From contig PDRZ01000020.1 of assembly GCA_002747035.1 (NCBI GenBank), positions 1 to 64,000 on the forward strand: a stretch of 64,000 bases of DNA, read 5' to 3'. The notes under the pieces are model-generated. The model saw only the letters and a program-made list of their open reading frames with translations. It was not told the DNA's origin and searched no databases. Shown here in pieces: positions 4,291 to 23,883 of this stretch. This DNA is from Rhodobacterales bacterium (GTDB lineage: Bacteria > Pseudomonadota > Alphaproteobacteria > Rhodobacterales > Rhodobacteraceae). The translations under genes were made by a program, and so were the position numbers. The first letter of the stretch is position 1, and each line of letters begins with the position of its first letter.

Positions 4291-5645
4291 GGGTCCTGCA
4301 AAAGCTGATCGGGGGCGAAAGCCTTGTGGCCCGGGCCATGCGCAGTTCGGCGCTGACCGTTATGGGGTTTGGCGCGCAACAGATGCTGCGCCTTGCCTCG
4401 AACCTGATCCTGACGCGGCTGTTGTTTCCCGAAGCCTTTGGGATGATGGCGTTGATCACCGTGTTCCTGATGGGGCTCAACATGTTTTCCGACGTGGGCG
4501 TGACGCCCGCGATCATGCAATCCAAACGCGGCGATGATCCGGGGTTTCTTGATACCGCCTGGACGATTCAGGTGATCCGGGGCCTGTCGCTTTTTACCGT
4601 GGCCTGTTTGATCGCATGGCCCGTGGCCTCGATTTATGGCGAGCAGGATCTGCTTTATATGCTGCCCGTCGCCGCCACCACCTTGATCATCTCGGGATTC
4701 AATCCCACGCGGCTGGATCAGGCGAACCGGCATCTGCGCCTTGGCCGTGTGACCACCATCGACATCTGTTGTCAAACCGTGGGCATTGCCGTGGCGGTGG
4801 GGTTTGCGCTGGTGCTCAACTCGGTCTGGGCGCTGGTGATCAGCGGGATCGCCTCGGCCTTTGTGCATCTTGTGGCCTATAACCTGTTTCTGGAAGGGCA
4901 CCGCAACCGGTTCCGTTGGGAAAAACCCGCTGCGCGTGAGCTGATCAATTTTGGCAAATGGATTTTCCTGTCCACCGTTGCGGGATTTGTGATCAGCCAG
5001 GCGGACAAGCTGTTGATCGGGAAATACCTGCCGCTGGATCAATTTGGTGTCTACAATATCGGCTATTTTCTTGCGTCTTTTCCGTTGCTTATGGGTGGGG
5101 TTCTGGTGCGCCGTATCCTGATCCCGCTGTATCGCGAATGGCCGCCGGGTGAGACGCGGGCCAATTTCCTGCGGCTGCGCAAGATGCGGTTTGCGGTCTC
5201 GGGCGTGTTGCTGGTGCTGGTCGCGGTGCTCGCCTTTGGCGGGGTGTGGATCGTGACCCTGCTTTATGATCCGCGTTATCAGATGGCCGGGGCGGTGACC
5301 GTGGTCATCGCCTGTATGCAGGTGCCCCAGATTATCGCGCTGACCTATGATCAGGCGGCGTTGGCGGCGGGGGACAGCAAAAGGTTCTTTGTGCTCGCCG
5401 CGTCCAAGGCCGTGTTCATGGTTGTCTGCCTTTTGGTTGGGTTGGAAACGGCCGGTTTGTTCGGAGCCCTGGTGGGGCAGGGGGCGGCGATGCTGCTTGC
5501 CTACCCCGTCGTGGTGTGGCTGTCGCGCGCGACCGGGGCGTGGGACGCGCTGCATGACGCGGGACTGGCTCTGGCCGGGCTGGTGATGATCGCGCTGGCC
5601 TTCTGGCTCAACTGGGCCGCGATTGCCGATCTGGCTGTGGGATAG
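4287..5645 (+). CDS. Wzx-type polysaccharide flippase
   Basis: A 452-residue, very hydrophobic protein with about 12-14 TM segments, typical in length for Wzx/PST-family (MOP superfamily) flippases. These move undecaprenyl-PP-linked oligosaccharides to the periplasmic face. Near the N-terminus it has the LILTRLLFPEAFGMMAL pattern common to this family (segments TRLLFP and FG). ATG 4287 overlaps the upstream stop and is preceded by GGAG at good spacing. An ATG at 4272 would add five residues and is less likely. About 210 bases, including a 71-bp repeat, separate it from the PKS gene. Confidence 0.87.
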   Translation: MRVLQKLIGGESLVARAMRSSALTVMGFGAQQMLRLASNLILTRLLFPEAFGMMALITVFLMGLNMFSDVGVTPAIMQSKRGDDPGFLDTAWTIQVIRGLSLFTVACLIAWPVASIYGEQDLLYMLPVAATTLIISGFNPTRLDQANRHLRLGRVTTIDICCQTVGIAVAVGFALVLNSVWALVISGIASAFVHLVAYNLFLEGHRNRFRWEKPAARELINFGKWIFLSTVAGFVISQADKLLIGKYLPLDQFGVYNIGYFLASFPLLMGGVLVRRILIPLYREWPPGETRANFLRLRKMRFAVSGVLLVLVAVLAFGGVWIVTLLYDPRYQMAGAVTVVIACMQVPQIIALTYDQAALAAGDSKRFFVLAASKAVFMVVCLLVGLETAGLFGALVGQGAAMLLAYPVVVWLSRATGAWDALHDAGLALAGLVMIALAFWLNWAAIADLAVG

Positions 5646-8800: not shown

Positions 8801-11800
8801 TGTCCTGTCGCCTGAACGGGGGCTGGATGATTTTAATGCACTTGTTGAAAATTTGACTGCAACCAATTGTATGCCAACAAAAATAGGTCATTTCTGGCTG
8901 GTCACACATGGCGAGGATTTCCGCCCCGGTTCTTCCTTCTTTCACCGGGTTCAGGAGCAGGGATTCTATACGCTGATGTTCATGGCCCAGGCCATGGCCG
9001 CCGCCGATTGGCCGCCGCTGCACATCACCGCCTTCACCACGGGGGCCATGCGTGTGCGCGACGAAACACTGATCCATCCAGAGAAATCCACGATCTCCGG
9101 GCCGCTTCGGGTTATGCCCCGCGAGATGCCGGGAATGACCTGTGCCGCGTTGGATCTGGTTCTGCCGGAAACCCCGCCTGCACGCTGGGGACGCAGCCCC
9201 GCGCCCGACCTTGCCCCGCTGACAGACCGGGTGTTGGAAGAGCTGTTGGCCACGCCGTCAAACCGCGTTGCTGCGTTGCGAAACGGGCGGCGCTATGAGC
9301 AGGTTTTCAAATCCGGATCGCTTGCCGGTGACACCCCCGACGCCCGGCCCGAGTTCCGGGATGAGGGCACCTATCTGATCACTGGCGGGTTCGGGGGCAT
9401 TGGCCTGACTCTGGCCGAAGATATTGTCAAACGTCACAAGGCACGTATCGTTCTGGTTGCACGCTCCGCTCTGCCGCCGCGCGATGATTGGGCCGCGCAT
9501 AAACGCCGCTTTGGCACCCATGATCCCGTGTCCCGCCGCATCGCCGCGGTCGAGCATCTGGAGCAGTTGGGCGGTCAGGTGCTTGTGGTCGCCGCCGATG
9601 TGTCCAATGTCGAAGACATGCGCGGCGCGTTGGAAAAGGTCCAGATGCGGTTTGGCGACATTCACGGCGTGATCCACGCCGCCGGGGTGATCGCCGATGA
9701 GCCGATATTGACCAAATCGCCGATGACGGTCGAAGACGTGTTCACGCCAAAGATCCATGGCACCCAGGTGCTGGACCAGCTGTTCCCCGATGGCCGCCTC
9801 GATTTTCTCGTGCTGTTTTCGTCTTCGTCCACCGTCACCGCGCCCGCGGGTCAGGTCGATTATGTCGCGGCCAATGAGTTCCTGAACGCCTATGCCCAGT
9901 CGCGGGCCGGGGGCAAAACCCGTGTTCTGGCGTTGAACTGGGGCATCTGGGCACAAGTGGGCATGGCGGCCGAGGCGCTTGGCGTCGCCCATGACGGACC
10001 GGATCAATCGGAAATGCCGGTCGGGGAACCCCTGTTGAACACGGCCAGCTTTGATGCGGATGGCCACCGGGTGTTCAAATCCACCCTGTCCACCGCAGAT
10101 TGGGTGGTCGGAGAACACAGAACCCGGGAAAATCAGGCGCTTTTGCCCGGGACCGGGTATCTTGAGCTGGCGAGCGAGGCGTTGGCGGCCCAGGGGGAAA
10201 CCGGACCCTATGAGATTCGCGATCTCTATTTCCTGCGCCCGCTGAACGTGTCCGATCATGGACCTGTCGAGGTGCAACTGATCCTGAAACGCGACGAGGT
10301 GGGGTATGATCTCACCGTGGAAACCCTGCGGGAGCATGAGGGTCGGCAGGGGTTCGAGATGAACGCTCAGGCGACGCTGTCGTTGCTGCCGTTGCCTGCA
10401 CCGCAGCCCGTGAACCTTGACGAGATTCGTGCGCGCTGTGACATTCGTGAAACTGCCAGACCGGGGCGCAGCCTGCGCAGCCCGCAGGAGGCGCATCTCA
10501 ACTTTGGTGCCCATTGGCGGGTGCTGCGCGAAACCGCGTTGGGAAAGGGCGAGGGCCTTGCGCGGCTGGAGCTTTCTGACGCGGTTCGGGCGCAAGAGGT
10601 CCACCTGCATCCCGGTCTGATGGATATGGCCACTGGCTGGGCGATGGCGCTGATTGACGGGTATCAGGCGGACCACCTGTGGGCACCGGTTAATTTTGGG
10701 GCGCTGCGTGTCTTTGCCGCTTTGCCGGACGAGGTGATCAGCTGGGTGCGCAACGCCGGTGAAAACCGCGTGGACACCGGCATGGCCAGCTTTGACATCA
10801 CCTTGTGTGACGTGGATGGAAATGTCGTGGTCGAGGTGCGCAACTTTTCGATCCGGCGGCTTGAGGGTGGTTTTGCGGACCGCCCCCTTGCGGCGTCCGA
10901 TCTGCGTTATCCCGATGGAGAGACCAACCGGCCCCTGTCCCCGGCCGAGGAACGGTTGCGCCATAACCTGTCCCAGGGCATTCGCCCGGAAGAGGGGGCG
11001 GAGCTGTTCCGTCACGCCCTGTCATCGGGCCTGCCCCAGGTGGTGGTCAGTTCGCTTTCGCTGCCCGATCTTGTGCGTCAGGCCGCGGCCCAATCGGACC
11101 GGCCCGAGGGCGAGGAACAGAAGTTCCAGCGACCGGATCTGGACACCGAATATGTTGCGCCCGAGGGGGACATCGAAACCCGCCTTGCGGGGTTCTGGGG
11201 TGCGCTTCTTGGTGTGGAACAGGTGGGGGCGCTTGACAATTTCTTTGATCTCGGGGGGCACTCGCTGATTGCTGTGCGCCTGTTTGCGATGGTGAAAAAG
11301 GCATGGAACGTGGATTTTCCGATCTCGGTCCTGTTCGAAGCACCCACTATACGCCAATGTGCAAAATTGATTGAAAAAGAAGGTGTTAGAATGGAAAGTG
11401 AAGGTATAAATTCCGATATGGACGGCCCAAAGACGCCCGAACGCCGCTTTACGCACGTGGTGCCCATGCATGTGGGCGAAGGCGGTCCGCGCCGTCCGTT
11501 CTTCCTCTGTGCCGGAATGTTTGGCAATGTGCTGAACCTGCGCCACCTTGCCCATTTGATCGGCTCGGATCGTCCCTTTTACGGGTTACAGGCGCGTGGG
11601 CTTTATGGAGACGAAGACCCGCACCGCACGATTCCCGAAGCGGCGCGCGATTACATCAAGGAAATCAAACAGGTACAGGGTGAAGGTCCCTATATGCTGG
11701 GCGGGTTTTCCGGCGGTGGGATCATCGCCTATGAGATCGCACAACAGTTGGTGGCCGACGGGGATGAGGTGTCGATTCTGGTCATGCTGGATACGCCCCT

Positions 11801-12320
11801 GCCGGTGCGTCGCCCGCTGACCGGGCGCGACCGTGCGGTGATCCAGTGGCAGGAGCTTAAGGCGGGGGGCTTTGCCTATCCGATGAAATGGCTGCTGCGG
11901 CGGGTGGCGTGGGAATTCAGCAAACGCCGCAAGAACGGCTCGCAAGATATTGAAATATATGAAAATACCTTCCACAATTCCGAGATTGAACAGGCCTTCC
12001 TTGGGGCGGTTGCGCAGTATGCGCCGAAACCCTGGCAAGGCCCGCTGGCCCTGTTCCGCCCGCCGCTTGTGGGCAAATGGCAGGTCGCGCCAGAGCGTTG
12101 GGTCAGCAGTGAGCGCGCCTATGTGACTTCGGACAATGACTGGACCGCTCATGCGCCTTTGATCGAGGTGATCGAGGTGCCGGGGGATCACGACTCCATG
12201 GTGCTGGAACCTAATGTCCGCGTTCTGGCGGCGCGTCTGCGGCGGTTGATCGAGGATGCAGAAAACCCCGTGGCACGGGCGGCCCGCGTGGCCGCGCTTC
12301 CCACCCATGCGGCGGAGTAG
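5856..12320 (+). CDS. Type I polyketide synthase, KS-AT-KR-DH-ACP-TE
   Basis: A 2154-residue single-module PKS. The KS spans about 14-440 with active Cys186 (TACSTSL), His322 (CHGTGT) and His362 (KTNIGH). The AT spans about 535-850 with Ser635 in GHSMG and an IAAH signature around H734 that matches neither the malonyl HAFH nor the methylmalonyl YASH type. The KR spans about 1165-1370 (TGGFGGIG at 1176-1183, Tyr1336, Asn1340), with its structural half upstream. A hot-dog DH spans about 1395-1670 (His1421, LLPGTGYLE, Asp1590). The ACP has Ser1803 (DLGGHS). The TE spans about 1875-2130 with Ser1952 (GFSGG), Asp1979 and His2112. No ER is seen. KR lies before DH, the reverse of ordinary modular PKSs. 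The DH motif lacks the usual Gly and has one extra residue before the Pro. The product should be a short reduced or unsaturated acyl chain released by the TE. Identity is firm, product unknown. Confidence 0.95.
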   Translation: MADQTDSVQSGENDIAIIGMAAHLPGAGNIGEYWDNLRQGVESIRKLDENALREAGVPEAVFNRPDYVPFAAPLDRFEEFDGDFFGFSPRESAILDPQHRHFLEVAWEAFENAGHVPENVKGPIGVFAGCGMGSYFYFNICSNPEMVENTGMFLLRHTGNDKDFLSTRVSHVFDLKGPSLSLQTACSTSLVATHYAAQSLLNGECDMALAGGVTIELPQGHGYVFKENEILSPDGHCHAFDASAEGTVFGSGAGVVLLRRMADAVRDGDHIWAVIKGSAVNNDGAAKAGYLAPSVDGQAAAIAEAQAIAETPADTVDYVECHGTGTYLGDPIEVAALTEAFRETTDDTGFCRIGSVKTNIGHLDTAAGVASLIKTSLALHHRQMPPSLNFNTPNPTIDFEHSPFRVNDSLRDWQSHKGPRRAGVNSLGVGGTNAHAVLEEAPARAASGACDWPFLPLVVSGRSRAALNANAAALAAHLRAHPEQPLADVAFTLKDGRKGFEKRKVIVAETHEQAAELLENDNPRRVFTHSVVGDDPEYVFMFPGGGAQYAGMARDLYETEPVFAEWMDRGLEVLQPRLDYDLRALWLPEAGAEEAANAALQRPSVQLPLIMITEYALAQLWISWGVKPDILVGHSMGENTAACLAGVMRFEDCIGLVHLRGQLFDTVPAGGMLSVSLDAGDLRGELGADLDLASVNAPGLSVATGPRAALDALQQRLEARDIDCQRVQIDIAAHSRMLDPILARFGDYLRAMTLNAPQIPLLSNRTGAPITDEQATDPDYWVAHLRNTVRFADCVSTLAERPERIYIEMGPGKALSSLAPLNPDVSRDQVISALRHPQDDIADDEYFIAQLARIWAMGGDFDWHQIWGEARRNRVPLPTYQFQKKPYFIAPGSVREDPVPTHLIRQPDLADWGYVPAWKPMAADCDVDVTGDLSEAAPESWLLFEDEAGLGRATAARLRAAGHQVTTVRPGDAFGRDGKHGFVLSPERGLDDFNALVENLTATNCMPTKIGHFWLVTHGEDFRPGSSFFHRVQEQGFYTLMFMAQAMAAADWPPLHITAFTTGAMRVRDETLIHPEKSTISGPLRVMPREMPGMTCAALDLVLPETPPARWGRSPAPDLAPLTDRVLEELLATPSNRVAALRNGRRYEQVFKSGSLAGDTPDARPEFRDEGTYLITGGFGGIGLTLAEDIVKRHKARIVLVARSALPPRDDWAAHKRRFGTHDPVSRRIAAVEHLEQLGGQVLVVAADVSNVEDMRGALEKVQMRFGDIHGVIHAAGVIADEPILTKSPMTVEDVFTPKIHGTQVLDQLFPDGRLDFLVLFSSSSTVTAPAGQVDYVAANEFLNAYAQSRAGGKTRVLALNWGIWAQVGMAAEALGVAHDGPDQSEMPVGEPLLNTASFDADGHRVFKSTLSTADWVVGEHRTRENQALLPGTGYLELASEALAAQGETGPYEIRDLYFLRPLNVSDHGPVEVQLILKRDEVGYDLTVETLREHEGRQGFEMNAQATLSLLPLPAPQPVNLDEIRARCDIRETARPGRSLRSPQEAHLNFGAHWRVLRETALGKGEGLARLELSDAVRAQEVHLHPGLMDMATGWAMALIDGYQADHLWAPVNFGALRVFAALPDEVISWVRNAGENRVDTGMASFDITLCDVDGNVVVEVRNFSIRRLEGGFADRPLAASDLRYPDGETNRPLSPAEERLRHNLSQGIRPEEGAELFRHALSSGLPQVVVSSLSLPDLVRQAAAQSDRPEGEEQKFQRPDLDTEYVAPEGDIETRLAGFWGALLGVEQVGALDNFFDLGGHSLIAVRLFAMVKKAWNVDFPISVLFEAPTIRQCAKLIEKEGVRMESEGINSDMDGPKTPERRFTHVVPMHVGEGGPRRPFFLCAGMFGNVLNLRHLAHLIGSDRPFYGLQARGLYGDEDPHRTIPEAARDYIKEIKQVQGEGPYMLGGFSGGGIIAYEIAQQLVADGDEVSILVMLDTPLPVRRPLTGRDRAVIQWQELKAGGFAYPMKWLLRRVAWEFSKRRKNGSQDIEIYENTFHNSEIEQAFLGAVAQYAPKPWQGPLALFRPPLVGKWQVAPERWVSSERAYVTSDNDWTAHAPLIEVIEVPGDHDSMVLEPNVRVLAARLRRLIEDAENPVARAARVAALPTHAAE

Positions 12321-12323
12321 GTG

Positions 12324-13331
12324 ATGACGGAACCGACCCTTCTTACCGTTCTCTTGAACTATCGCACGCCCGACATGACCCTTCAGGCGGCGGCGGCGGC
12401 CCTGCGTGAACTTGACGGTTTGAATGCCGAGCTGGTGATCGTGGATAACGATAGCCAGGACGGGTCGTTCGAAAAGCTCGCTTCGGGTGTGGCCGCGGCG
12501 GGGTGGGATGTGCGGGTCCTGCAGTCCGGTCACAATGGCGGGTTCGGCGCGGGCAATAATTTCGGTATACGCGCCGGGTTGTCCGATGGCTCCGCGCCCG
12601 ATTTGTATTACATCCTGAATTCCGACGCGTTCCCCGATGCCGGGTCGATCCGGCACCTGCGCGATTATCTTTTGGCGAATCCCAAGGTTGGGTTTGCGGG
12701 CAGCTATATCCATGGGCCGGAACAGGACACCCATGTGACCGCCTTCCGCTTTCCTTCGGTGGCCTCGGAATTCGAGGGTGCGATCCGCTTTGGCCCCGTG
12801 ACCCGGTTGCTGTCCGATCACGTGGTGCCGTTGCCGGTCCCGACCCAAAGTGGGGCGGTGGACTGGCTGGCCGGGGCCAGCCTGATGATGCGGGCCCGGG
12901 TGTTGGAGCAGATCGGGCTGTTTGATGAAGCCTTCTTTCTCTATTACGAGGAAACCGACCTGTGCCGCCGCGCCGCGCGTGCCGGATGGCCCACCCATTA
13001 CGTGGTGGAAAGCCGCGTCACCCATATTGGATCGGTCAGCACCGGAATGAAGGAATGGGACCGCGTGCCGGGTTATTGGTTTGACAGCCGCTGGCACTAT
13101 TTCACCAAGAACCACGGTTCGGTCTATGCCGTTCTGGCCACCATATCCCATGCGTTGGGCGGGGTTTTCTACCGCCTGCGCCGATTGGTTCAGCGGGAAA
13201 AACCCGCCGATCCTCCCCATTTTCTGCGCCATTTGTTGGTGCATGATCTGACGGCTTTGGTCCGGGGCAACCCCCGGAGTCAGCGCCAGGACACTGCGCC
13301 CCCTGCCTCCGTTATCCGTGAAGGAGAGTAA
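12324..13331 (+). CDS. Glycosyltransferase family 2 (rhamnosyltransferase-like)
   Basis: About 335 residues. The N-terminal GT-A half has VIVDNDSQDGS, the NGGFGAGNN motif and the LNSDAFP metal-site region. Further on come DWLAGASLMMR and YYEETDLCRRA, as in WcaA/RfbF-like rhamnosyl and related transferases. ATG 12324 has GGAG six bases upstream. A GTG at 12321 directly after the PKS stop is an alternative. It lies between the PKS and NRPS genes with gaps of 2-3 bases, so all three are surely co-transcribed. This makes it a candidate for glycosylating the polyketide/peptide product or for building the sugar chain that carries it. Which of these is correct is inference. Confidence 0.88.
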   Translation: MTEPTLLTVLLNYRTPDMTLQAAAAALRELDGLNAELVIVDNDSQDGSFEKLASGVAAAGWDVRVLQSGHNGGFGAGNNFGIRAGLSDGSAPDLYYILNSDAFPDAGSIRHLRDYLLANPKVGFAGSYIHGPEQDTHVTAFRFPSVASEFEGAIRFGPVTRLLSDHVVPLPVPTQSGAVDWLAGASLMMRARVLEQIGLFDEAFFLYYEETDLCRRAARAGWPTHYVVESRVTHIGSVSTGMKEWDRVPGYWFDSRWHYFTKNHGSVYAVLATISHALGGVFYRLRRLVQREKPADPPHFLRHLLVHDLTALVRGNPRSQRQDTAPPASVIREGE

Positions 13332-13333: not shown

Positions 13334-16300
13334 ATGTCTGCTCAAACACATGTTATCATCGGCAATGAAAGCCTTGCGGTGCAATGCGCCGAAAAGATTC
13401 TGGCGCGGGGCGATGGGATTGCCGCCTTTGTGACGCGCAACCCCGATCTTGGCCAATGGGCCGCCGCGCGCGGTCTGACTGTTCTGGCCCCCAGTGCGGA
13501 ACTGGCGATTCAACTGGCGGCGATGCCTCATGACTGGCTGTTGTCGATTGCCAATCTGGATATGTTGCCGGCGGCGGTGCTGGACCTGCCTCGCCGTGGG
13601 GCGGTGAATTTCCACGATGGGCCGTTGCCGCGCTATGCGGGGTTGAACGCGCCGGTCTGGGCGATAATTGCGGGCGAGGCGACCCATGGCATCACCTGGC
13701 ATATGATGGAGGCCGGGGCCGACACGGGTGCGATTATCGAACAGGTGATGTTTGACATTTCGGATACGGATACGGCGCTGACCCTGAACACCAAGGCCTA
13801 TGAGGCCGCGATCGGGTCGTTTGAGGCGCTCCTGGACAAGCTGGCGCTGGACCCGGTGCCGGTGGTGGCACAGGATCCTTCCCAACGCAGCTATTTCGCC
13901 CGGGATGCGCGCCCCGAGGCGGCGGCGCGGCTGGATTTTGCCCAATCGGGTGAGGCGCTGGTGCGGATGGTGCGGGCGCTGGATCATGGCACCTATTGGA
14001 ACCCGCTGGCGGTGCCCAAGGTCGAACTGGCCGGGGCGGTGTTTGCGGTTGGCGCGGTTGCGCCTGGCGCGGCTGCCGAAGGCGCGCCGGGGACGGTGCT
14101 TGCGGTTGAGGGCGGAGAGATCACCGTGGCCACCGCAACCTGGCCCGTGGTTCTGAGCGGCCTGACGGATCTGACTGGCAAGGAGGTGACCCCAGGGGTT
14201 GCGGTTGGGGATGTCCTGCCGATGTTGTCGCGTCACGAGGCCGAGGTTTTGAGCGCGGCGATGGCGCTGGCGGCGAAGGGGGATGCCCTGTGGCGCGCGC
14301 GCCTGTCGGAGCTGGCCCCGGCGGCGCTGACGCTTGACGGGGACGGGACGGAGCAGCGCGTGGCGCTTGACCTGCCCGCGGGCGCGCCGGTGGTCGAACG
14401 CGCGCTGGCTTTGGTTGCGGCGCTTTCGGAACATGGGGTTGCGGACTTGGCCTATGCGTCGCCCAACCTGCCGGACGCGCCGGGATATGCCAGCGGCTGG
14501 GTGCCGGTGCGTGGCGTGGAAGATATTGAAAAGGCCGAAAAAGCGCCTTGTTTTGCGTTGGATATTGCCTTGCGGGATCGCGCCATGGGCGGGGTGACGC
14601 AGCCGTTGATCGGGATCAGCGCGGCGGATCGCCCGGTGCCGGGCTGTGCGCTGACCATCACACCCGGGGCGCTTTATTCTGATGGGCGTGTCGGGGCCGG
14701 GCAGTTGATGCTCTGGGCTGCGCGTCTGGCCCATGTCTGTGGCCAGCCGGAATTCGATGCGGGTGATCTGATGCCTGTTTCGGAACGCGATTTGGTGGTG
14801 AGCACGTGGAACAACACGTCCGTCGATTACCCGCGTGAGGCCACGGTGCATGGCTTGTTCGAGGCGCAGGCGGCCAAAACCCCCGATGCGGTTGCTCTTG
14901 TGTTCGAAGGGGAGGTTCTGACCTATGCCGCGCTTAATGCACGCGCCAACCAGGTGGCGCATGTGCTGGCCGGGGACGGGGTGAAACCCGGAACGCTGGT
15001 TGGGCTGGCCGCGCCGCGGTCGGTGGAGTTGCTGGTGGGGGCGCTTGGCATTCTCAAGGCGGGCGGGGCCTATGTGCCGCTTGATCCAAACTACCCGGCC
15101 GACCGTATTGCGCTTTATGTGGAAGACAGCGGTGCGCCGGTGATTGTGACAACCGCCGCCATCGCGCCCGCTCTTCCGCCCTCACAGGCGGCCTCGCTTG
15201 TGTTGGATCGCGATCCGCGCATCGCCGCCGCGTCCGAACACAACCCGGAGAGCGGGGCCGGGGCCGATGATCTGGCCTATCTGATCTATACATCCGGCTC
15301 CACCGGCAAGCCCAAGGGCGTGATGGTGGAACATCGCAACGTGTCGAACTTCTTTACCGGCATGGATGCGCGGATCGCGCATTCCGACGGCTCTGTCTGG
15401 CTTGCGGTGACTTCGCTGAGCTTTGACATTTCCGTTCTGGAGCTGTTCTGGACCCTGTCCCGTGGCTTCAAGCTTGTCCTTTCGGGCGATGAATCGCGCA
15501 CATTGGTCAGCGACGGGCGCATTTCCATGACCGATAAGGGGATGGATTTCGGCCTGTTCTACTGGGGTAATGACGATGGTCCCGGCAAACGCAAATACCG
15601 CATGTTGCTGGAGGGGGCCAAATTCGCCGACACGCATGGGTTTTCGGCGATCTGGACGCCCGAGCGTCATTTCGCGGCCTTTGGCGGCCCCTATCCCAAC
15701 CCCGCCGTGACCGGGGCGGCGGTGGCGGCGGTGACCCAGAATATCTCGGTGCGTTCCGGGTCCTGTGTCGCCCCCTTGCACCATCCTCTGCGGGTGGCCG
15801 AAGAATGGGCCGTGATCGACAATCTGACCGAAGGGCGCGCCGGGCTTGGGATCGCCAGCGGCTGGCAGCCCGACGATTTCGTCCTGCGCCCCGAAAACGC
15901 GCCGCCAAACAACAAGGAGGCGATGTTTGACACGATCGAAAAGCTGCGCGCCCTGTGGCGCGGCGAAACGGTGGAATTCCCCAATGGCAATGGCAAGGAC
16001 TGCGCCGTTCTGACCCAACCCCGCCCGGTTTCCAGGGAATTGCCGATCTGGCTGACCATTGCCGGCAATCCCCAGACCTGGAAAGAGGCGGGCGAGATTG
16101 GTGCCAATGTGCTGACCCACCTGCTTGGCCAATCCATCGAAGAGGTAGCGGGCAAGATTGAAATCTATCATCAGGCGCTGCGTGACAACGGCCACAACCC
16201 GGATGATTTCAACGTCACCCTGATGCTACACACTTATGTCGCCGAGACCCGCGAACAGGCCCGCGAAGTGGCGCGGGGTCCGATGAAGGACTACCTCTCT

Positions 16301-17833
16301 GCCGCGGCCGCGCTGATCAAGCAATATGCCTGGACCTTCCCCGCCTTTAAACGGCCCAAGGGCGTGGATAACCCGTTCGAACTGGATCTGGAGGTGCTGA
16401 CCGAAGAGGACATGGAAGGCATTCTTGAATTCGCCTTCCTTCGCTATTTCGAGGACTCCGGGCTGTTTGGCACGGTCGAAGACTGTCTGGACCGGGTGGA
16501 GCAGCTGAAACGCATCGGGGTTACCGAAATCGGCTGTCTGATCGACTATGGTATTGATCCTGAACTGGTTCTGGAGGGGCTTAAGCCACTGGCCGAAGTA
16601 CATAAACGCGCCAATATGGGCGCGCAGGTGGCCGGGGATGACTTCTCTATCGCCGCCCAGATCGTGCGCCATGGCGTGACCCACCTGCAATGCACGCCCA
16701 GCCTGGCGCGCATGATCACCATGAACGAAGAATCGCGCATGGCTTTGGGGCGGGTGAAACACCTGATGATCGGGGGCGAGGCGCTGCCCGGCAATCTGGT
16801 GAAAGAGTTCAACGGCCTTACCGACGCGACCATCGAAAACATGTATGGGCCCACGGAAACCACGATCTGGTCCACAACCGAAACCGCCCGGGCGGGGGAA
16901 GGGGTGGTGAATATCGGCACCCCCATCGCCAATACCCAGGTGTATGTGTTGGACGAGAGCGGCGCGCCGGTGCCTGTGGGCGTGCCGGGCGAGCTGTTCA
17001 TTGGGGGCGAAGGCGTTACCCGGGGCTATTGGCAACGGCCCGACCTGACCGCCGAACGGTTTCTGGACAACCCGTTCCATGCCGGGCGCATGTATCGCAC
17101 CGGCGACCTTGTGCGCTGGCGTGGGGATGGCAAGCTTGATTTCCTTGGCCGGGCGGATCACCAGGTGAAATTGCGTGGCTACCGGATTGAGCTGGGCGAA
17201 ATCGAAACCCGTCTGCACGATCTGCCGGGGGTGGAACAGGCGGTTGTCATGGCGCGCGAAGACACGCCCGGCGATCTGCGCCTTGTTGCGTATTTGCGCG
17301 GGCAGGGGCCGGATGAGGCCGCAATGCGCGCCGCGCTGGTGCGTGATCTGCCCGATTTCATGGTGCCCGCCCATTTTGTGACGGTGACCGACTTCCCCCT
17401 GACCCCGAACAAGAAAGTGGATCGCAAGGCGCTGCCTGCACCTTCGCTGGTTCCGGCTCGGGCACAGGTCAGCGAACAGAAGCTGCATGAAAAGGGCAGT
17501 GTCGAGGCGCATATCTCCTCGGTCTGGACCCATGTGCTTGGGGTGGATCGGATCGGGGCGCGTGACAGCTTCTTTGACCTTGGCGGGCATTCGTTGCTGG
17601 CGGTGCAGGCCCATCGCGAAATCCGTGCGCTGTGCGACGTACCGCGTCTGGCGATCACCGACATCTTCCGCTTTCCCACCCTGGGCGGGTTGGCGGACCG
17701 GATCCGCGACCTGTCGCAGGGTGGGGCTGCGCCGAAACCGTCCGAAGCCGCACAGGAGGCGGTTCAGGCGCGCGACGACGCCATGTCCCGGCGGCGCGAG
17801 ATGCGGGCGAAACGGCGGATGGCGCGGACCTGA
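13334..17833 (+). CDS. NRPS: formyltransferase - degenerate C - A with embedded luciferase-like monooxygenase - PCP
   Basis: A 1499-residue protein. Residues 1-300 resemble formyl-THF-dependent formyltransferases (VNFHDGPLPRYAG at 91-103, GADTGAII), as in Met-tRNA formyltransferase and the LgrA start module. Residues about 310-490 align only loosely with the end of a condensation domain and have no HHxxxDG. The A domain spans about 495-1370, with A3 YTSGSTGKPKG at 652-662, A4 SFDIS at 696-700, A5 MYGPTETTIW at 1170-1179, YRTGD at 1254-1258 and NKKVDRKAL at 1359-1367. A flavin luciferase-like monooxygenase (about 733-1092; IWTPERHF, PLHHPLRVAEEW) sits between A4 and A5. The PCP has Ser1420 (DLGGHS). 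There is no TE. The code read by aligning to GrsA is D-I-L-Q-M-G-M-I-W-K, close to known glycine codes. Likely role: load glycine, formylate it and/or oxidise it on the carrier protein. Confidence 0.93.
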   Translation: MSAQTHVIIGNESLAVQCAEKILARGDGIAAFVTRNPDLGQWAAARGLTVLAPSAELAIQLAAMPHDWLLSIANLDMLPAAVLDLPRRGAVNFHDGPLPRYAGLNAPVWAIIAGEATHGITWHMMEAGADTGAIIEQVMFDISDTDTALTLNTKAYEAAIGSFEALLDKLALDPVPVVAQDPSQRSYFARDARPEAAARLDFAQSGEALVRMVRALDHGTYWNPLAVPKVELAGAVFAVGAVAPGAAAEGAPGTVLAVEGGEITVATATWPVVLSGLTDLTGKEVTPGVAVGDVLPMLSRHEAEVLSAAMALAAKGDALWRARLSELAPAALTLDGDGTEQRVALDLPAGAPVVERALALVAALSEHGVADLAYASPNLPDAPGYASGWVPVRGVEDIEKAEKAPCFALDIALRDRAMGGVTQPLIGISAADRPVPGCALTITPGALYSDGRVGAGQLMLWAARLAHVCGQPEFDAGDLMPVSERDLVVSTWNNTSVDYPREATVHGLFEAQAAKTPDAVALVFEGEVLTYAALNARANQVAHVLAGDGVKPGTLVGLAAPRSVELLVGALGILKAGGAYVPLDPNYPADRIALYVEDSGAPVIVTTAAIAPALPPSQAASLVLDRDPRIAAASEHNPESGAGADDLAYLIYTSGSTGKPKGVMVEHRNVSNFFTGMDARIAHSDGSVWLAVTSLSFDISVLELFWTLSRGFKLVLSGDESRTLVSDGRISMTDKGMDFGLFYWGNDDGPGKRKYRMLLEGAKFADTHGFSAIWTPERHFAAFGGPYPNPAVTGAAVAAVTQNISVRSGSCVAPLHHPLRVAEEWAVIDNLTEGRAGLGIASGWQPDDFVLRPENAPPNNKEAMFDTIEKLRALWRGETVEFPNGNGKDCAVLTQPRPVSRELPIWLTIAGNPQTWKEAGEIGANVLTHLLGQSIEEVAGKIEIYHQALRDNGHNPDDFNVTLMLHTYVAETREQAREVARGPMKDYLSAAAALIKQYAWTFPAFKRPKGVDNPFELDLEVLTEEDMEGILEFAFLRYFEDSGLFGTVEDCLDRVEQLKRIGVTEIGCLIDYGIDPELVLEGLKPLAEVHKRANMGAQVAGDDFSIAAQIVRHGVTHLQCTPSLARMITMNEESRMALGRVKHLMIGGEALPGNLVKEFNGLTDATIENMYGPTETTIWSTTETARAGEGVVNIGTPIANTQVYVLDESGAPVPVGVPGELFIGGEGVTRGYWQRPDLTAERFLDNPFHAGRMYRTGDLVRWRGDGKLDFLGRADHQVKLRGYRIELGEIETRLHDLPGVEQAVVMAREDTPGDLRLVAYLRGQGPDEAAMRAALVRDLPDFMVPAHFVTVTDFPLTPNKKVDRKALPAPSLVPARAQVSEQKLHEKGSVEAHISSVWTHVLGVDRIGARDSFFDLGGHSLLAVQAHREIRALCDVPRLAITDIFRFPTLGGLADRIRDLSQGGAAPKPSEAAQEAVQARDDAMSRRREMRAKRRMART

Positions 17834-18525
17834 TGGCGCTGGATTCCACATATTCCGGGAACCCGCCTGTCTGGGCCAAAGCCGCGATGGAGCTTTTGCC
17901 CCCGGGGCTGGTGCTGGCCTGGGAGGACCCCGCGCTTTCGGACGAAGGTCTTTTTGCGGTGGAAGAGGTGGCCATGCACCGCGCCGTGCCTGCCCGCAGG
18001 GCAGAATTCGCCGCGGGCCGCCGCGCCGCACATCGGTTGCTTGAGCAGGTTATGGGGCGGGCGTCGCCCATTCCCATGGGACCGGATCGCGCGCCGCTCT
18101 GGCCCGGTGGGGTGGTGGGCAGCCTGTCCCATTGCCCCGGTGCCTGTGTTGCCGTCGCGGGCCGTGCCGATGACATTCGCGCGGTTGGGGTCGATATCGA
18201 ACCCTACGCTCCGCTCGATCCGGCGCTGTTCGACATTGTCGCCACCGCGCGTGAACGGGGCTGGCTTGAAACACTTCCCCCAACCCGGCGCGGGCTGGCC
18301 GCAAAATGCCTGTTTTCGGCCAAGGAAGCGGTATTCAAATCCCAGTACGGCATCACCGGAAAAATGTTGGATTTCCATGACCTGGAGTGTGTCCTTGATG
18401 TCCCGGCGCGGCGGGTTGCGGCGCGTTTTGCCCACTCCGTGCCGTTTGGGTTTGACCGGCTTTCTCTGGAAACCCGGATACAGGTTGCGGATGGGTTCAT
18501 TTTTTGCATAAGCTTTGAAGTGTAA
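17833..18525 (+). CDS. 4'-phosphopantetheinyl transferase (EntD/Sfp type)
   Basis: A 230-residue enzyme that transfers phosphopantetheine from CoA to the Ser of carrier domains, here presumably PKS Ser1803 and NRPS Ser1420. The family motifs are present: GSLSHCPG near 96-103, the Mg-binding D121-I-E123 in VGVDIEP, and FSAKEAVFK with K164, E165 and K169. The start is the ATG of a TGATG overlap with the NRPS stop. A longer in-frame extension only reads through NRPS sequence. Its place as the last gene of the biosynthetic run makes it the dedicated activator. Confidence 0.92.
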   Translation: MALDSTYSGNPPVWAKAAMELLPPGLVLAWEDPALSDEGLFAVEEVAMHRAVPARRAEFAAGRRAAHRLLEQVMGRASPIPMGPDRAPLWPGGVVGSLSHCPGACVAVAGRADDIRAVGVDIEPYAPLDPALFDIVATARERGWLETLPPTRRGLAAKCLFSAKEAVFKSQYGITGKMLDFHDLECVLDVPARRVAARFAHSVPFGFDRLSLETRIQVADGFIFCISFEV

Positions 18526-18787
18526 TCAGTTGAATTATTGATATCAATATGTCTTTATAACGAGCTTTTTCCCATCGTTTCGGAAACACTCTGTTTCTGG
18601 AAGAACTGGGAAAAAACTGGCGAGAACAGGGTGAATGCCCTATGTAATGCCTTATGTTATGAAAGAACCGGACGGGGTGGTGTTGCTGGATGCCATTGGC
18701 GGAAAATTCCCGCAGCCTCCCACCGGATCAGTTTCAAGCAAATTCCTGCGGGGGCAAGGAATTTTGCCAAGGTAACGGAGTTTGGAC
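18526..18787 (+). promoter_or_regulatory. AT-rich leader before the Wzz-like gene, with nested hairpin
   Basis: 262 bases, much lower in GC than the neighbours. 9-bp arms TTTTTCCCA (18566-18574) and TGGGAAAAA (18607-18615) enclose smaller GTTTC/GAAAC palindromes. An imperfect tandem repeat of AATGCCxTATGT lies at about 18632-18657. The GGAG at 18777-18780 is the ribosome site of the next gene. It is probably a promoter/leader region with a regulatory or terminator hairpin. No gene is seen. Confidence 0.5.
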
Positions 18788-20098
18788 ATGGGCCAGATTC
18801 AGTCGGTTGGAGATTTCCTTGGCATGGTGCGTCGCCGCATCGTGCTTATCCTGTGCATCGTCGTGCTGGGCACCATGGCGTCCATTTGGTGGACGCTGGG
18901 TCAGCCGCGCGTCTACGAGGCGACAGCGGTGGCCCAGATTGAAACCCCGCAAGTGACCGACACCGGGGCCAGCCCGTCGGGCGGGACCAGTGCGGATCAC
19001 CGGTTGCGCCTTTTGGAACAACAACTGATGGCGCGCGATCACCTGATCACGCTGATCGAGAAATACGATCTGTTCGCCGAAACCGGTCTGTCGCTGAACT
19101 TCAAGGTGGTGGCGCTGCGCGAGGCGGTGCAGATTGTTCAGATCACCGATCCCAACGCGGCCTGGGGGACGGCGCGGGTGCCCACGGGGTTGATGATTTC
19201 CGTGACACAGACCGACGCGGAACTGGCCGCCGCCCTGGCCAACGAATTCCTGGATGCGCTGTTGCGGCTGAACCGCGAACGTCGCTCGGTTGCCGCCTCG
19301 CAGACGTTGGAGTTTTTTCAGGCAGAAGGCGCGCGGGTCGAAGCGGAAATGGCCGCGCTTGAGGCCCGGATCGCCGAGTTCAAGGAACAGAATGCCGATT
19401 ACCTTCCCACCGGGATCGCCGCTCAACGGGATGAACTGGCCGCACTCAAGGTCACGTTGCTTGAACTGAAACAAAGCCTGATCGAGCTGGAAGCCAGCCG
19501 CACCCGCCAGCGGGCGGATGTGATCGAACGGCAAAGTGGTCTTCTGGTTCAACAACAGAAGCTGATCGAAAACCGGATTGCCAATATCGAGGCGGCCATC
19601 GTCAGCGCCCCCGAGGTGGAACGCCAGTTCAATATCCTGGATCGCGATCTTGAACGGCTCAAGGAACAACACGCGGTGATCACCCGTCGTGCAACGGATG
19701 CCGAGATGGGGCAACTGTTGGAAAGCCAGCAGCAATTCGAACGGATTGAAGTGCTTGAAACCGCTCTGGTGCCCGAAAATCCGGTGTCTGGCAGTCGCAG
19801 GAAAAAGGTGGCGCTGGGCGGGTTTCTAAGCGTGATGCTGGGTTTGGTTCTCGCCTTGGTTCTGGATTATATGAACCCGGCCATCCGCACGCGGGCGCAA
19901 TTGGAACGGGCGCTGGATGTCAAAGCGGTGGTGGCCATCCCCCACCTCACGCCACCCCGGACGCAAAAACGCCGCCGGGTGCTATGGCTTGCCGCGCTGG
20001 CCGCTCTTTTCGCCGCGCTGATTGCGATCTGGGGCACTGTCCGCGATCTGGTCGGTGGGCTGATCGGGTCAATCACGGGACGTTTGCACGGGGCATGA
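18788..20098 (+). CDS. Wzz/GumC-type chain-length determinant protein (PCP)
   Basis: A 436-residue polysaccharide co-polymerase. TM1 is at about 18-38 (IVLILCIVVLGTMASIWW). A large periplasmic part with long coiled coils spans about 160-300, and TM2 is near 340-360 (VALGGFLSVMLGLVLALVL), followed by a short cytoplasmic piece. A third hydrophobic segment lies at about 397-420. These proteins set chain length and export of EPS together with a BY-kinase. Here the kinase is encoded separately and convergently at 20119-21540, 20 bases away. ATG 18788 is chosen over TTG 18782 because GGAG is 7 bases upstream of it. Confidence 0.88.
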   Translation: MGQIQSVGDFLGMVRRRIVLILCIVVLGTMASIWWTLGQPRVYEATAVAQIETPQVTDTGASPSGGTSADHRLRLLEQQLMARDHLITLIEKYDLFAETGLSLNFKVVALREAVQIVQITDPNAAWGTARVPTGLMISVTQTDAELAAALANEFLDALLRLNRERRSVAASQTLEFFQAEGARVEAEMAALEARIAEFKEQNADYLPTGIAAQRDELAALKVTLLELKQSLIELEASRTRQRADVIERQSGLLVQQQKLIENRIANIEAAIVSAPEVERQFNILDRDLERLKEQHAVITRRATDAEMGQLLESQQQFERIEVLETALVPENPVSGSRRKKVALGGFLSVMLGLVLALVLDYMNPAIRTRAQLERALDVKAVVAIPHLTPPRTQKRRRVLWLAALAALFAALIAIWGTVRDLVGGLIGSITGRLHGA

Positions 20099-20118: not shown

Positions 20119-21540
20119 TCAGTACCCGTAGTGATACCCCTTGGTCTCTTCACCTTCCGCCTGGTTCAGCACCACGCCCAGCAAAGGCGTGTCTTCTCCC
20201 AGTCGGCGCATGACCTCGCGCACCTCTTCCGCGGTGGTTGCGCCGCCGCCGACCACCATCAGGATCCCGTCAAACTGTGGTCGAAAGGCAATCACGTCGT
20301 CGAAATTCAATGCCGGGGGCAGGTCGTAGAGCACGATATCTGGGGACAGTTCCTCCATCATCCGCTCCAGCGCCTCGCCACAGGCGGGGTCGCTCATCAG
20401 CTCGGCGGCATAGGGTTCGATCCGGTCATTCATGGCCACGGCAAGATTGCCCCCGATGTTCAGATTGTTGCGCCCAACGCGCAGCATGAACTCTTCCACC
20501 GGCGTGATGCCCTGTAGGAAATCCCCCATGCTGCCCGGGTTGCTTGCGCCCAGCACCTTGGCCACTGACGGGTTGCGCATGTCCATATCCAACAGGATCG
20601 TGCGGCTGGCCTCATACCGGCTGAGCGATATGGCAAGGTTCACTGCGGTGAAGGTTTTACCGCAATCACGGGTGGGCGAGGTGATGGCGACCCGCTTCCA
20701 CCCCCGTTCCAAAAGGGTTTGAACCAGCCGCGTGCGCAAAACATCGAACGCACCATGGGCGGGGTCGTGCCGCCCGGCGGTGATGATCAGGTTCTGTTCA
20801 AGATGGTCGGCATCGACCGGCATCGCGCCAAGCTGTTCCCATTTGTCGACAAAATTCCGCGCCGGTGCCGGTGCCGGAGGGGTCGCCAGCGGGGGCAGGC
20901 CGTCCAGAACAGAGAAATCCGGCTCAGGGGTGGGGTCAACGGGCGCGGTTTTCTGCGTGTTTTCGTCGATCTGCTGGGCCATAGGGTCTTCGCGCCCGGC
21001 CTTGCCTGACGGTGCGCCGGGGGCGTCCAGACCGAACAGTATATCCATGTCCCACAGGTCGTCGTCGGAAAACGCCGGGGCTGTCTCCTCGACGGTTTTC
21101 GGGGCCACAGGGGTGGTGGTCTGGTCGCTGCTCTCGTTCCGGGCTTCGGTGTCTTCTGTCGGGATGTCCAGATCAGGCCCGGTTCTTCCGGACTCTTCCG
21201 AAACATCGTCCAGCGGCCAGTCCGCGCCGTCGTCCGCAGTATCGTCGGCCGTGTCGTCCGCCGTGTCGTCCACGGGCGCGATCCCCTCTGGCACAATCAC
21301 ATCGTATTCGTCGGTTGCGCTCCGGTCCTCTTTTCCCGGTGCTGCCGTGTCTGTCGGAGCGTCCGTTTCCCGTGCGATATCGTCCCGTTCGGGCGTCTCC
21401 AGTGTCGAGGAACCGGACTCGGGAGAGGTCTCCACGCGCGGTTCCCCGCCCGGACCGGCGATTTCCGCGATCATGCGGTCCCGCTCTTCGCGGCTTAACC
21501 GTTTGCGGGATTTTCGGGTAAAGGGGCGATCATCGGTCAT
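20119..21540 (-). CDS. BY-kinase-like ATPase (CpsD/CapB/ExoP C-terminal type)
   Basis: A 473-residue cytoplasmic ATPase. Residues 1-230 are highly acidic and probably disordered, with a near-perfect DDTA repeat at about 91-107. The ATPase part has a deviant Walker A SPTRDCGKT at 288-296, Walker A' LLDMDMRNP at 316-324, and VLYDLPP as Walker B. It ends in a short tyrosine cluster (GYHYGY), the usual autophosphorylation site, although only three Tyr are present. It should partner the Wzz-like protein to control polymer length. GGAGG seven bases upstream supports ATG 21540 rather than a longer start. The acidic N-terminal extension is unusual for the family. Confidence 0.85.
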   Translation of the reverse strand: MTDDRPFTRKSRKRLSREERDRMIAEIAGPGGEPRVETSPESGSSTLETPERDDIARETDAPTDTAAPGKEDRSATDEYDVIVPEGIAPVDDTADDTADDTADDGADWPLDDVSEESGRTGPDLDIPTEDTEARNESSDQTTTPVAPKTVEETAPAFSDDDLWDMDILFGLDAPGAPSGKAGREDPMAQQIDENTQKTAPVDPTPEPDFSVLDGLPPLATPPAPAPARNFVDKWEQLGAMPVDADHLEQNLIITAGRHDPAHGAFDVLRTRLVQTLLERGWKRVAITSPTRDCGKTFTAVNLAISLSRYEASRTILLDMDMRNPSVAKVLGASNPGSMGDFLQGITPVEEFMLRVGRNNLNIGGNLAVAMNDRIEPYAAELMSDPACGEALERMMEELSPDIVLYDLPPALNFDDVIAFRPQFDGILMVVGGGATTAEEVREVMRRLGEDTPLLGVVLNQAEGEETKGYHYGY

Positions 21541-21792
21541 GCGCACACCTCCAGCCACCGCCCGCAATCCGGGGCGCTGACCTTGAGCCTCCGCACATCC
21601 CGTGCGGGTAAAACTGCAAATCCGACGCTCACAATCTCAATCCTGTATCTGCTGTGTCTTCCTGACCTGTTTGTCTTGAGACTTCGTTCAGAACCGGGAT
21701 AATACCCTACAGCTTGCCCACAGTATGCAGCAAATTTGGGCCAAATTAAGCCCATCTTCCGAATTTCTGCGCTGCAACATGGGAATTGGCGC

Positions 21793-23883
21793 TTAAAACC
21801 CCATTAATCCGGCGCGGGTGATTGCCTCTTCGATGAACCGTGCCTTGTCGGATTGCGGGGTCCAGCCCAGCACCGCTTTGGGATGGGCGTTGTCAAAGGG
21901 CGAGAAATGCGCGCGGCTTTTCCAGTCGGCCAGCGACGGGCGGGACAGCCCCTTGCGTCGCAACACCTTGGTTTTCAGGAAAAACTTGACGGCATCCGAG
22001 GCGTAGAATGCCATCAACGGGCCGGAAGAGACCTTGATCCGTGCGCCCAACGCGTCGTGGATTGCGTCAAAATATCCGCGCGCTGACAGCATGGGTTCGC
22101 CCACAAGGTTGAAACTCTGTCCCACGGCCTCGTCCACCTCGATCATGCGCACCAGCCCCTCGGCCACGTCGTCGATCAACACGAAAGGCAGGATATTGCG
22201 CCCATGTCCCCAGATCCTGACCGCGCCCGCCCCGTGCCAGCGCCCGATTCCCCAGTGTTGCAATGGGCCACCGGCCCCGACCACGATGCCGGGGCGGGCG
22301 ATAACCAGGGGCAGGCCCGCGGTCCGGTGCATCTCCATCAATTGCCGTTCGCATTCCGCCTTGGAGCGGGCATAGATGTTGCGTGCTTCCAGATCGCCGA
22401 AATCGCTGTTTTCGGTGATGGTCACATTCGGGTCGGACATGTCGTAAGAGGCGATGGTGCCGGTATAAACCAGCCGCTCAACCCCCGCCGTTTGCGCCGC
22501 GCGGGCAATGCGCAGCGCCACGCCCACGTCGTTTTCCAACGCCGCGTCCCATGTTTTGTCCATGGATTTGGCAAGGTTGAAGACGTGTTTGATGCCCTGC
22601 ATCGACTCGACCAATGCCGCTTCGTCATAAAGGCTGACGCCCACCGTTTCGACCTTGTCGGCGATGTCGTCAAACGGGCCGGTTTTGCCGCGCGACAGCA
22701 CGCGCACATGGTGCCCCCGTTCGACCAGTTTGCGGGTCAGCGCGCGACCAATGAACCCGGTGCCGCCGATCACCATGGCGGTGGGGGTCGGGGTGCCTCT
22801 GGGGCGCGGCGGCGGGGTCCAGTCGGGCAGGTGGCTCAGCGTGTTATCAAGGGCTTGCATGACCTTGACCGCGCTGTCGCCCGCAAATCGTGCATCGGCC
22901 GCGCGTCCCTCGATCAGGGCGCTGTAAAACCCGTCACACATGCCCCGAAACGACAGGCCATAGGGGGATTTCTGGTTCAGCGACACCAATTGCCGCCCGG
23001 CATTCACCACGCCTTCGCGCAGGTGGTTCCAGGACTGCGCCAGCTCGGCCCGGAGCGGGTTGATCACAAGGTCCGAGGCGTTGGGCGTGGCGATGGTCAG
23101 CGTGTCATTGGCATAGTCCAGCCGCGCCATGCCGCTTGAGCCGCGCAGCGTGACCGACCGGTCATCGTGGGTTTCCACCAGAGACAGGGTGATATTGACC
23201 TCAACCTCACCGGCGCGGGCCATGATCCGCCATATCTGGGGCCGGGTGCCGCCGCCGGGGATCGCGACCTCTTTGCTGGTCTCCACATGCAGCGTGTCCA
23301 CGGGTCCGAACAGGTCGGTGGCAAAGGCGTAAAGATGCGGTCCAAGTTCCAGCAACAGGTTCCTGGGTTCGCGCATCAACCAGATCCCGTAGGGTCCGGC
23401 GCGCAACGGCCCAAGCGGGAAACACCAATTGATTTCGGCCGTGCTGATACGACCCAGCCGGCCCGCGCTTACCGCCTTTTTCAACCGGGCATAGGCGGGG
23501 ATGCCAAGGAAATTGTGCCCGGCGGCAAAATGGACGCCCCGGGCACGCGCGGCGGCTTCGATTTCGGCGGTTTCCGTGCCCGACATGGCCACCGGTTTTT
23601 CCACCAGTACATGCAGCCCCCCGGCGATACATTGCAGGGCAAGGGGATGGTGCAGGTGGGGCGGGGTGGTGATGTGCACCGCCTGAACCGCGCCGCTGGC
23701 GATCAATTCGTCCACGCTGCTATAGGCCTTTACCCCGTAAGAGGCGGCAAAGCCTTCGGCGGCAGATTTCGACACATCGCACACGGCGACCAGCTTGGCC
23801 CCCCTGGTGGCGCGGATCGCGTCCGCGTGCCAGTCGGCAATATATCCGGCCCCGATGATCGCGGTTTTGATGGTGGCAGCCAT
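21793..23883 (-). CDS. Fusion of Gfo/Idh/MocA oxidoreductase and NAD-dependent epimerase/dehydratase
   Basis: A 696-residue two-enzyme fusion. Residues 1-350 form a Gfo/Idh/MocA dehydrogenase, with Rossmann IIGAGYIADWHA at 9-20 and the EKP motif at 95-97. After a proline-rich linker (357-367) comes an extended SDR/epimerase, with GGTGFIG at 373-379 and a YxxxK active site in NIYARSKAE. Both parts normally act on nucleotide sugars (3-/4-keto chemistry), so the pair could perform successive oxidation and reduction or epimerisation of one sugar. It is the fifth gene of a leftward operon (28506 to 21793), 15 bases after a GT2. Substrate unknown. Confidence 0.87.
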   Translation of the reverse strand: MAATIKTAIIGAGYIADWHADAIRATRGAKLVAVCDVSKSAAEGFAASYGVKAYSSVDELIASGAVQAVHITTPPHLHHPLALQCIAGGLHVLVEKPVAMSGTETAEIEAAARARGVHFAAGHNFLGIPAYARLKKAVSAGRLGRISTAEINWCFPLGPLRAGPYGIWLMREPRNLLLELGPHLYAFATDLFGPVDTLHVETSKEVAIPGGGTRPQIWRIMARAGEVEVNITLSLVETHDDRSVTLRGSSGMARLDYANDTLTIATPNASDLVINPLRAELAQSWNHLREGVVNAGRQLVSLNQKSPYGLSFRGMCDGFYSALIEGRAADARFAGDSAVKVMQALDNTLSHLPDWTPPPRPRGTPTPTAMVIGGTGFIGRALTRKLVERGHHVRVLSRGKTGPFDDIADKVETVGVSLYDEAALVESMQGIKHVFNLAKSMDKTWDAALENDVGVALRIARAAQTAGVERLVYTGTIASYDMSDPNVTITENSDFGDLEARNIYARSKAECERQLMEMHRTAGLPLVIARPGIVVGAGGPLQHWGIGRWHGAGAVRIWGHGRNILPFVLIDDVAEGLVRMIEVDEAVGQSFNLVGEPMLSARGYFDAIHDALGARIKVSSGPLMAFYASDAVKFFLKTKVLRRKGLSRPSLADWKSRAHFSPFDNAHPKAVLGWTPQSDKARFIEEAITRAGLMGF

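Follow-up and report, generated by a model that had tools for sequence, protein, structure and literature searches.

A putative formyltransferase-headed NRPS starter module with an LLM flavin monooxygenase inside its glycine-type adenylation domain, paired with a type I PKS in a polysaccharide locus of Rhodobacteraceae

The window, i.e., the whole stretch of 64,000 nucleotides that was analysed (contig PDRZ01000020.1 of assembly GCA_002747035.1, Rhodobacterales bacterium), contains a polysaccharide locus in which an NRPS and a type I PKS are encoded on one strand, with a glycosyltransferase gene between them. The pair is flanked on both sides by genes of polysaccharide type, encoding a flippase-type protein, glycosyltransferases, a WecG-type transferase and an AT3-SGNH acyltransferase (Pfam). 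The features are as follows:

1787-1859: tRNA gene (Rfam), just before the polysaccharide locus
3430..4290, + strand: GT2 glycosyltransferase (Pfam)
4272..5645, + strand: polysaccharide flippase-type protein (Polysacc_synt)
5856..12320, + strand: type I PKS of 2154 aa, KS-AT-KR-DH-ACP-TE (Pfam)
12321..13331, + strand: GT2 glycosyltransferase between PKS and NRPS (Pfam)
13334..17833, + strand: putative NRPS starter module of 1499 aa, FT - C-terminal C lobe - A(LLM)A - PCP (Pfam, NCBIfam)
13334..14218, + strand: formyltransferase (FT) domain, residues 1-295, with N92/H94/D130
14219..14833, + strand: C-terminal lobe of a condensation (C) domain, residues 296-500, without HHxxxDG
14834..15538, + strand: N-terminal part of the adenylation (A) domain, to past motif a4 (Pfam; a4 at residues 697-705)
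15539..16618, + strand: LLM flavin monooxygenase (TIGR04020), residues 736-1095, lying between motifs a4 and a5
16619..17443, + strand: C-terminal part of the A domain (Pfam; a5 at residues 1169-1175, Lys1361)
17513..17704, + strand: peptidyl carrier domain (PCP; Pfam), Ser1420
17833..18525, + strand: Sfp-type phosphopantetheinyl transferase (4PPT_N, ACPS), its start overlapping the NRPS stop (TGATG)
18782..20098, + strand: chain-length-regulator-like protein, assigned by eye, with no Pfam match
20119..21567, - strand: CbiA/ParA-type ATPase (Pfam), probably tyrosine-kinase-like
21793..23883, - strand: Gfo/Idh-epimerase fusion (Pfam), probably sugar-modifying
31968-33902, - strand: membrane acyltransferase of AT3-SGNH type, in the same polysaccharide locus at its far end

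On the other side of the polysaccharide locus, thiolase and PaaA/PaaC-type genes are found from 36159 on.

The coordinates and the reading frame of the NRPS gene (13334-17833) proved exact in an ORF check. All three families that the original prediction had expected, Formyl_trans_N, AMP-binding and TIGR04020, were matched in the protein, the AMP-binding match lying in two stretches (1.2e-90), and AMP-binding_C and PP-binding were matched as well (Pfam). Residue conservation was counted in an alignment of 54 homologues, the window protein included. Since the architecture is retained in homologues down to about 50% identity, its origin by chance is excluded. The PCP serine is conserved in 53/54 rows, and the median pairwise identity by domain is highest for the LLM (0.744) and lowest for the C lobe (0.317).

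Formyl_trans_N matches residues 56-157 (4.2e-16), and Formyl_trans_C remains slightly below its cut-off (20.3 vs 21.1 bits; Pfam). The Formyl_trans_N match above cut-off, the fold and the catalytic N/H/D identify the domain as a formyltransferase of the Fmt/ArnA fold, with N92 kept in 54/54 homologues and H94 and D130 in 53/54 each. Both exceptions belong to one row (L055, 5656-10326, minus strand), the sole one without H94 and D130, whose genome carries a second LLM locus. These residues support the proposal of an N-terminal FT at chain start as in LgrA of linear gramicidin, which likewise bears an FT of Fmt fold at the N-terminus of its initiating module and is a PDB sequence match to the window NRPS over A and PCP. 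LgrA differs in that it continues as a peptide synthetase, and it reportedly starts with valine and has no C lobe between FT and A. A rhizobial FT-starting NRPS (L112, genome G393) shares FT, C lobe and A domain with the window protein (profile match over positions 5-534, 406 bits) and differs in having no LLM; it is the start of an NRPS with three A domains, in which C-A-PCP modules come after. The same genome holds three FT copies (L112-L114), and FT matches of this kind are present on many rhizobial plasmids.

The region between FT and A has no Pfam match in the window protein, PF00668 was matched in 1/52 members (E 0.27) and HHxxxDG occurs in 0/54 homologues. A profile of this region matched McyB (6.4e-11) and Txo2 (1.1e-8), with most of the match in its last 64 positions. 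An AF2 model of the remnant only (residues ~296-500) reached a pLDDT of 93.7, and among the matches listed for it NRPS C-type domains make up 44/50 Foldseek rows and 50/50 VIA rows; the aligned chain range is below 330 residues in 33/50 listed VIA rows and wider in the remaining 17/50, because one piece falls in the other lobe. Residues ~296-500 are the C-terminal lobe of a condensation domain, with neither the second lobe nor HHxxxDG, and the FT stands in place of the missing lobe. Most likely, the lobe serves as a scaffold between FT and A. The absence of a working C domain had been anticipated, and no intact C domain was found in residues 300-490, in the structural prediction either; the anticipated order FT - degenerate C - A(LLM)A - PCP also stands, but the 'degenerate C' is the one remaining lobe of a truncated domain rather than a degenerate whole.

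In the A domain, motifs a3 (652-662) and a4 (697-705) precede the LLM (736-1095), and a5 (1169-1175), Lys1361 and the PCP Ser1420 follow it, so that the LLM is inserted between a4 and a5. TIGR04020 matches residues 739-1089 with 476.9 bits vs a curated cut-off of 244.45 (NCBIfam), which makes the domain an LLM of MupA/Atu3671 type; Bac_luciferase matches residues 749-1064 (5.8e-50; Pfam) and the closest PDB sequence is PuwE (6ket). Motif alignment gives the A-domain code D-I-L-Q-M-G-M-I-W-K, at the GrsA code positions as placed by motif rather than by an external predictor. The code fits that of glycine, DILQLGLIWK. The same letters had been read before as a near-glycine code, and they do not point clearly to another amino acid. 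Across the 54 rows, code position 299 is variable (M 28, L 16, F 7, Y 3), position 330 has one V, position 517 has one gap and the other seven are invariant. LLM-split A domains accompanied by a full C domain carry glycine-type codes too, for instance in Nostoc and Burkholderia glumae, and a Streptomyces LLM-split A domain deviates from such a code (DMVQLGMVWK). In an LLM tree of 27 rows the deep forks are unresolved and FT-type rows are not separated from C-type rows, and therefore no claim is made on whether the FT took the place of a C lobe or the LLM was inserted into an NRPS of FT type. Atu3671 was considered as an architectural twin and rejected: the Agrobacterium plasmid member (L142) is a stand-alone LLM of 355 codons, hence the TIGR04020 family name is uninformative about an FT.

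The proposed likeness to MtaG holds for the insertion. In MtaG and MelG (myxothiazol, melithiazol) the monooxygenase likewise interrupts a glycine A domain between a4 and a5 (PMC10204066; PMC11342130); it is described to hydroxylate the glycyl alpha carbon, and once the carbinolamide has broken, the carrier retains a glyoxyl thioester (PMC10204066). The same chemistry, with carrier-bound glyoxylate, is described for corallorazine (PMC11342130), and the LLM embedded in the palmerolide PKS was assigned to alpha-hydroxylation (PMC8739492). By published description, MtaG and MelG stand at the chain end, with an upstream peptide and a TE that removes the glyoxylate, whereas the window NRPS has an FT in place of upstream modules, a C lobe only instead of a working upstream C domain, no thioesterase match by Pfam and a PKS next, thus lacking the make-up of an amide-releasing terminus. 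Since nothing lies upstream and the NRPS has no TE, it cannot serve to release an upstream peptide as an amide in the manner of MtaG, and this part of the original prediction has to be given up. The layout reported for MtaG, C-A(LLM)-PCP-TE, is seen on a plasmid of Streptomyces sp. NBC_01343 (L139, 9775-15569), followed immediately by a flavin reductase gene and preceded by genes of LysW/LysX type, possibly an amide-releasing pathway.

We propose that the NRPS would act as a chain-starting module. Its A domain, going by the sequence code, would activate glycine and load the PCP; the FT, judging by its family and the kept catalytic residues, would move a formyl group from formyl-tetrahydrofolate onto the PCP-bound glycine; and the LLM, as its family suggests, would hydroxylate the alpha carbon of N-formylglycyl-S-PCP. 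The N-formyl group would thereby stand in for the upstream peptide that gives the N-acyl glycine substrate in MtaG and SolF. The resulting N,O-acetal would most likely break down to formamide and glyoxylyl-S-PCP, the survival of N-formyl-alpha-hydroxyglycyl being less likely; this breakdown is suggested by the insertion site shared with MtaG, and our confidence in it is evenly balanced. LLMs of the NtaA/EmoA type cut N-carboxymethyl groups to glyoxylate, which fits such a cap-and-cleave logic. The 'glycolate-like' unit foreseen earlier is better read as glyoxylyl or N-formyl-alpha-hydroxyglycyl.

It might also be that the alpha-hydroxyl is retained, so that N-formyl-alpha-hydroxyglycyl (or an N-acyl imine) would be the starter, similarly to hydroxyglycine in solanimycin B. 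Module 4 of SolF (solanimycin) resembles the window NRPS in combining a glycine A domain with a flavin monooxygenase, its product being a retained alpha-hydroxyglycine (PMC10204066), and a formyl cap would be wasted if lost at once. We nevertheless consider this outcome rather unlikely, since SolF is a mid-chain module whose oxygenase is located between a8 and a9, whereas the a4/a5 site of the window NRPS is that of the cleaving enzymes (PMC10204066), even if insertion site and outcome are correlated over three named cases, which is not a proven cause. A quite improbable option is that the LLM N-hydroxylates glycine and, with formylation by the FT, yields an N-formyl-N-hydroxyglycine (hydroxamate) starter, a metal-binding group possibly carried on a polysaccharide. 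Formyl-hydroxamates in some siderophores do arise by an FT plus an N-oxygenase, and there is reportedly oxime work on lobatamide. In necroxime the oxime is formed from a glycine primer, but its oxygenase is named there only 'Oxy', with no family given (PMC7318616). Moreover, the described glycine-A monooxygenases act at the alpha carbon (PMC10204066; PMC11342130), and no siderophore receptor or transport gene was seen among the annotated window neighbours.

Feeding of a formylated glycine into a PKS is known from conglobatin, in which an FT-A(Gly)-PCP starter (CongA) precedes a cis-AT PKS, and from the oxazolomycin starter (PMC4504003); by architecture only, the window NRPS is likewise an FT-A(Gly)-PCP that starts a PKS. 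In the description of those starters no LLM is mentioned, and their oxazole is made by the CongE/OzmP cyclodehydratase (PMC4504003). One may ask if the LLM of the window NRPS is a passenger or inactive, so that the module would supply plain N-formylglycine, as the conglobatin starter does, towards a polyketide with an oxazole or formamido group. Assembly lines started by FT-A(Gly)-PCP without LLM do exist (PMC4504003), as do FT-A NRPSs with the C lobe and without LLM (L112). Yet the LLM is the most conserved domain, with 120/360 columns invariant in at least 53/54 rows, and no CongE/OzmP-type cyclodehydratase was seen among the neighbour gene families or the Pfam matches of annotated window genes, which leaves this option very improbable.

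As to the PKS, the examined KS, AT, KR, DH and ACP residues are invariant in 58/58 proteins (58/60 rows, two fragments below 1800 aa being left out), apart from the second histidine of the DH region (53/58) and one variable KR position; the TE Ser is kept in 56/58 and the TE His in 57/58. The window PKS deviates from the usual DH motif HxxxGxxxxP, with H and D kept. Four loci outside the Rhodobacteraceae group (L115, L118, L134, L135) have the NRPS followed by the PKS on the same strand, and this order supports an assembly in which the NRPS is first and the PKS second. No window-type PKS is present near L014, at L147 the partner is instead a 3082-aa NRPS/PKS hybrid, and L052 has another, larger NRPS/PKS hybrid. 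In the pathway that we propose, the starter would go to the KS of the partner PKS, so that the glyoxylyl fragment would be kept and not discarded; the PKS would extend it with one malonyl unit (a single round is assumed), reduce and dehydrate, and the TE would release a 4-oxocrotonyl-type acyl group. Depending on the starter, the products after one PKS round would be 4-oxocrotonyl or 4-formamido-4-hydroxycrotonyl groups.

The surroundings of the cassette were compared in 40 loci, i.e., 40 of the 69 matching genomes, those ranking highest by score, with a few of short open frames skipped. The FT is present in 40/40 and the PKS in 39/40, a GT2 gene lies directly before the NRPS in 38/40 and the phosphopantetheinyl transferase directly after it in 33/40; at least one of five window-derived polysaccharide markers was found in 29/40, and none in 11/40. 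As a glycosyltransferase gene separates PKS and NRPS in nearly all loci and polysaccharide genes are usually around, the probable destination of the acyl group would be a sugar in a glycolipid or surface polysaccharide, and the AT3-SGNH protein (31968-33902) is a candidate for acyl transfer to the polymer. In Aminobacter (pAM01), O-antigen ligase, export and flippase genes adjoin the NRPS/PKS pair. On a plasmid of Deinococcus actinosclerus (L141, 8246-19071), an A(LLM)-PCP protein gene overlaps that of a PKS ending in a C domain, not a TE, in a capsule-type locus with CapK, Polysacc_synt_2 and UDP-glucose dehydrogenase genes. No FT was found there by Pfam and profile comparison gave E 0.12, which implies that an FT can be dispensed with in some cases. 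Upstream, there is a GNAT/FemAB-type gene. On a Ruegeria plasmid (L136, 21004-24918), genes for a UbiA-type prenyltransferase, GtrA, an FAD-binding oxidoreductase and an SDR adjoin the cassette, a set which presumably recalls decaprenyl-phospho-arabinose synthesis. At L115, L118 and L135 (sampled genes) and at L147 (annotated genes), no gene was clearly of capsule type.

The product could alternatively be a free small molecule, a signal or an antibiotic, with the polysaccharide genes as mere neighbours; we regard this as possible, though doubtful. Relatives outside Rhodobacteraceae stand beside TRAP transporter, TPP enzyme or nos genes, and the terminal TE of a PKS can hydrolyse. Against it speak the GT2 gene that precedes the NRPS in nearly all loci, the presence of capsule or O-antigen genes next to the pair both in Aminobacter and in Deinococcus, which belongs to another phylum, and the C domain at the end of the Deinococcus PKS, a domain type able to join an acyl group to an acceptor.

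TIGR04020 was found above 1e-60 in 69/198 Rhodobacteraceae genomes (67 exceeding the cut-off), and roughly one in three of the genera sampled in the family has the gene set. A PKS of about 50% identity or more is present in 68/198 genomes (80 PKS matches were split by hand at about this level into 68 kin and 12 others) and both proteins in 66; the LLM occurs without a kin PKS in G022, G143 and G146, and the PKS without LLM in G085 and G154. The joining of FT and LLM-split A domain on one protein, held to be unusual in the original prediction, is thus not a singleton, but a PKS-tied family. One of the 12 others, a PKS match of 43% over residues 360-2141 in a genome without LLM (G096:C17:153563-158698), may be a PKS of the window kind without NRPS. 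TIGR04020 was matched in 13/387 Alphaproteobacteria (at least 90% complete), nine of them with an open frame near 1500 aa in length. With a profile of residues 1-505, matches over the full length were obtained in 15/398 Pseudomonadota genomes, all Alphaproteobacteria, one of which (G393) has no LLM in the contig scanned, and the remaining matches are ordinary formyltransferases. Full-length relatives are present in Hyphomicrobium, in one Acidimicrobiales MAG and on plasmids of Ruegeria, Paracoccus, Aminobacter, Shinella and others. Two alphaproteobacterial genomes of symbiont size, 1.5 Mb (L131 and L132, in G742 and G811), carry large PKS genes with a TIGR04020 LLM. L021 and L022 are weak A-domain matches, and the Persicitalea (L017) and Streptomyces (L018) candidates, with no LLM or FT match by Pfam (for L018 in the first 4999 residues), were dropped as unrelated.

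An orphan NRPS-like/T1PKS cluster with synteny among Rhodalgimonas, Marimonas, Lentibacter and Aquicoccus was published (PMC10608839), and two of our loci (L007, L002) come from genera of this set; in Phaeobacter inhibens the neighbouring loci Inhi_1972 and Inhi_1974 were listed as a PKS and an NRPS (PMC4062626). The accounts given of these clusters contain no domain analysis, mechanism or product. From position and genus we infer that they are the window cassette, and the cluster itself is already reported as an orphan, without function. The available text of PMC4359443 and PMC8776678 holds nothing on the cassette, and no description of an FT together with an LLM-split A domain was found in the open-access literature.

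The explanation that fits best as a whole, i.e., a formylglycine starter, oxidation by the LLM, a glyoxylyl primer, PKS extension and probable attachment to a sugar, is put forward with moderate confidence. New chemistry on the NRPS is plausible. The parts are known, but their order would be a new logic for starting an assembly line, in which a formyl cap replaces the upstream chain, and if glyoxylyl is made, an aldehyde can stand at the start of a polyketide. Among the orphan NRPS/PKS sets of this major marine family, the cassette is one of the more frequent (69/198 genomes), and its steady pairing with a glycosyltransferase suggests that assembly-line chemistry is used to decorate polysaccharide. 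A bolder and unlikely version is that the formyl group is a throw-away N-cap, that glyoxylyl serves as the polyketide primer and that a four-carbon aldehyde-acid on the polysaccharide gives a reactive coat. If true, such an NRPS/PKS-made reactive coat in Rhodobacteraceae and a Deinococcus could crosslink or hold the cell to surfaces.
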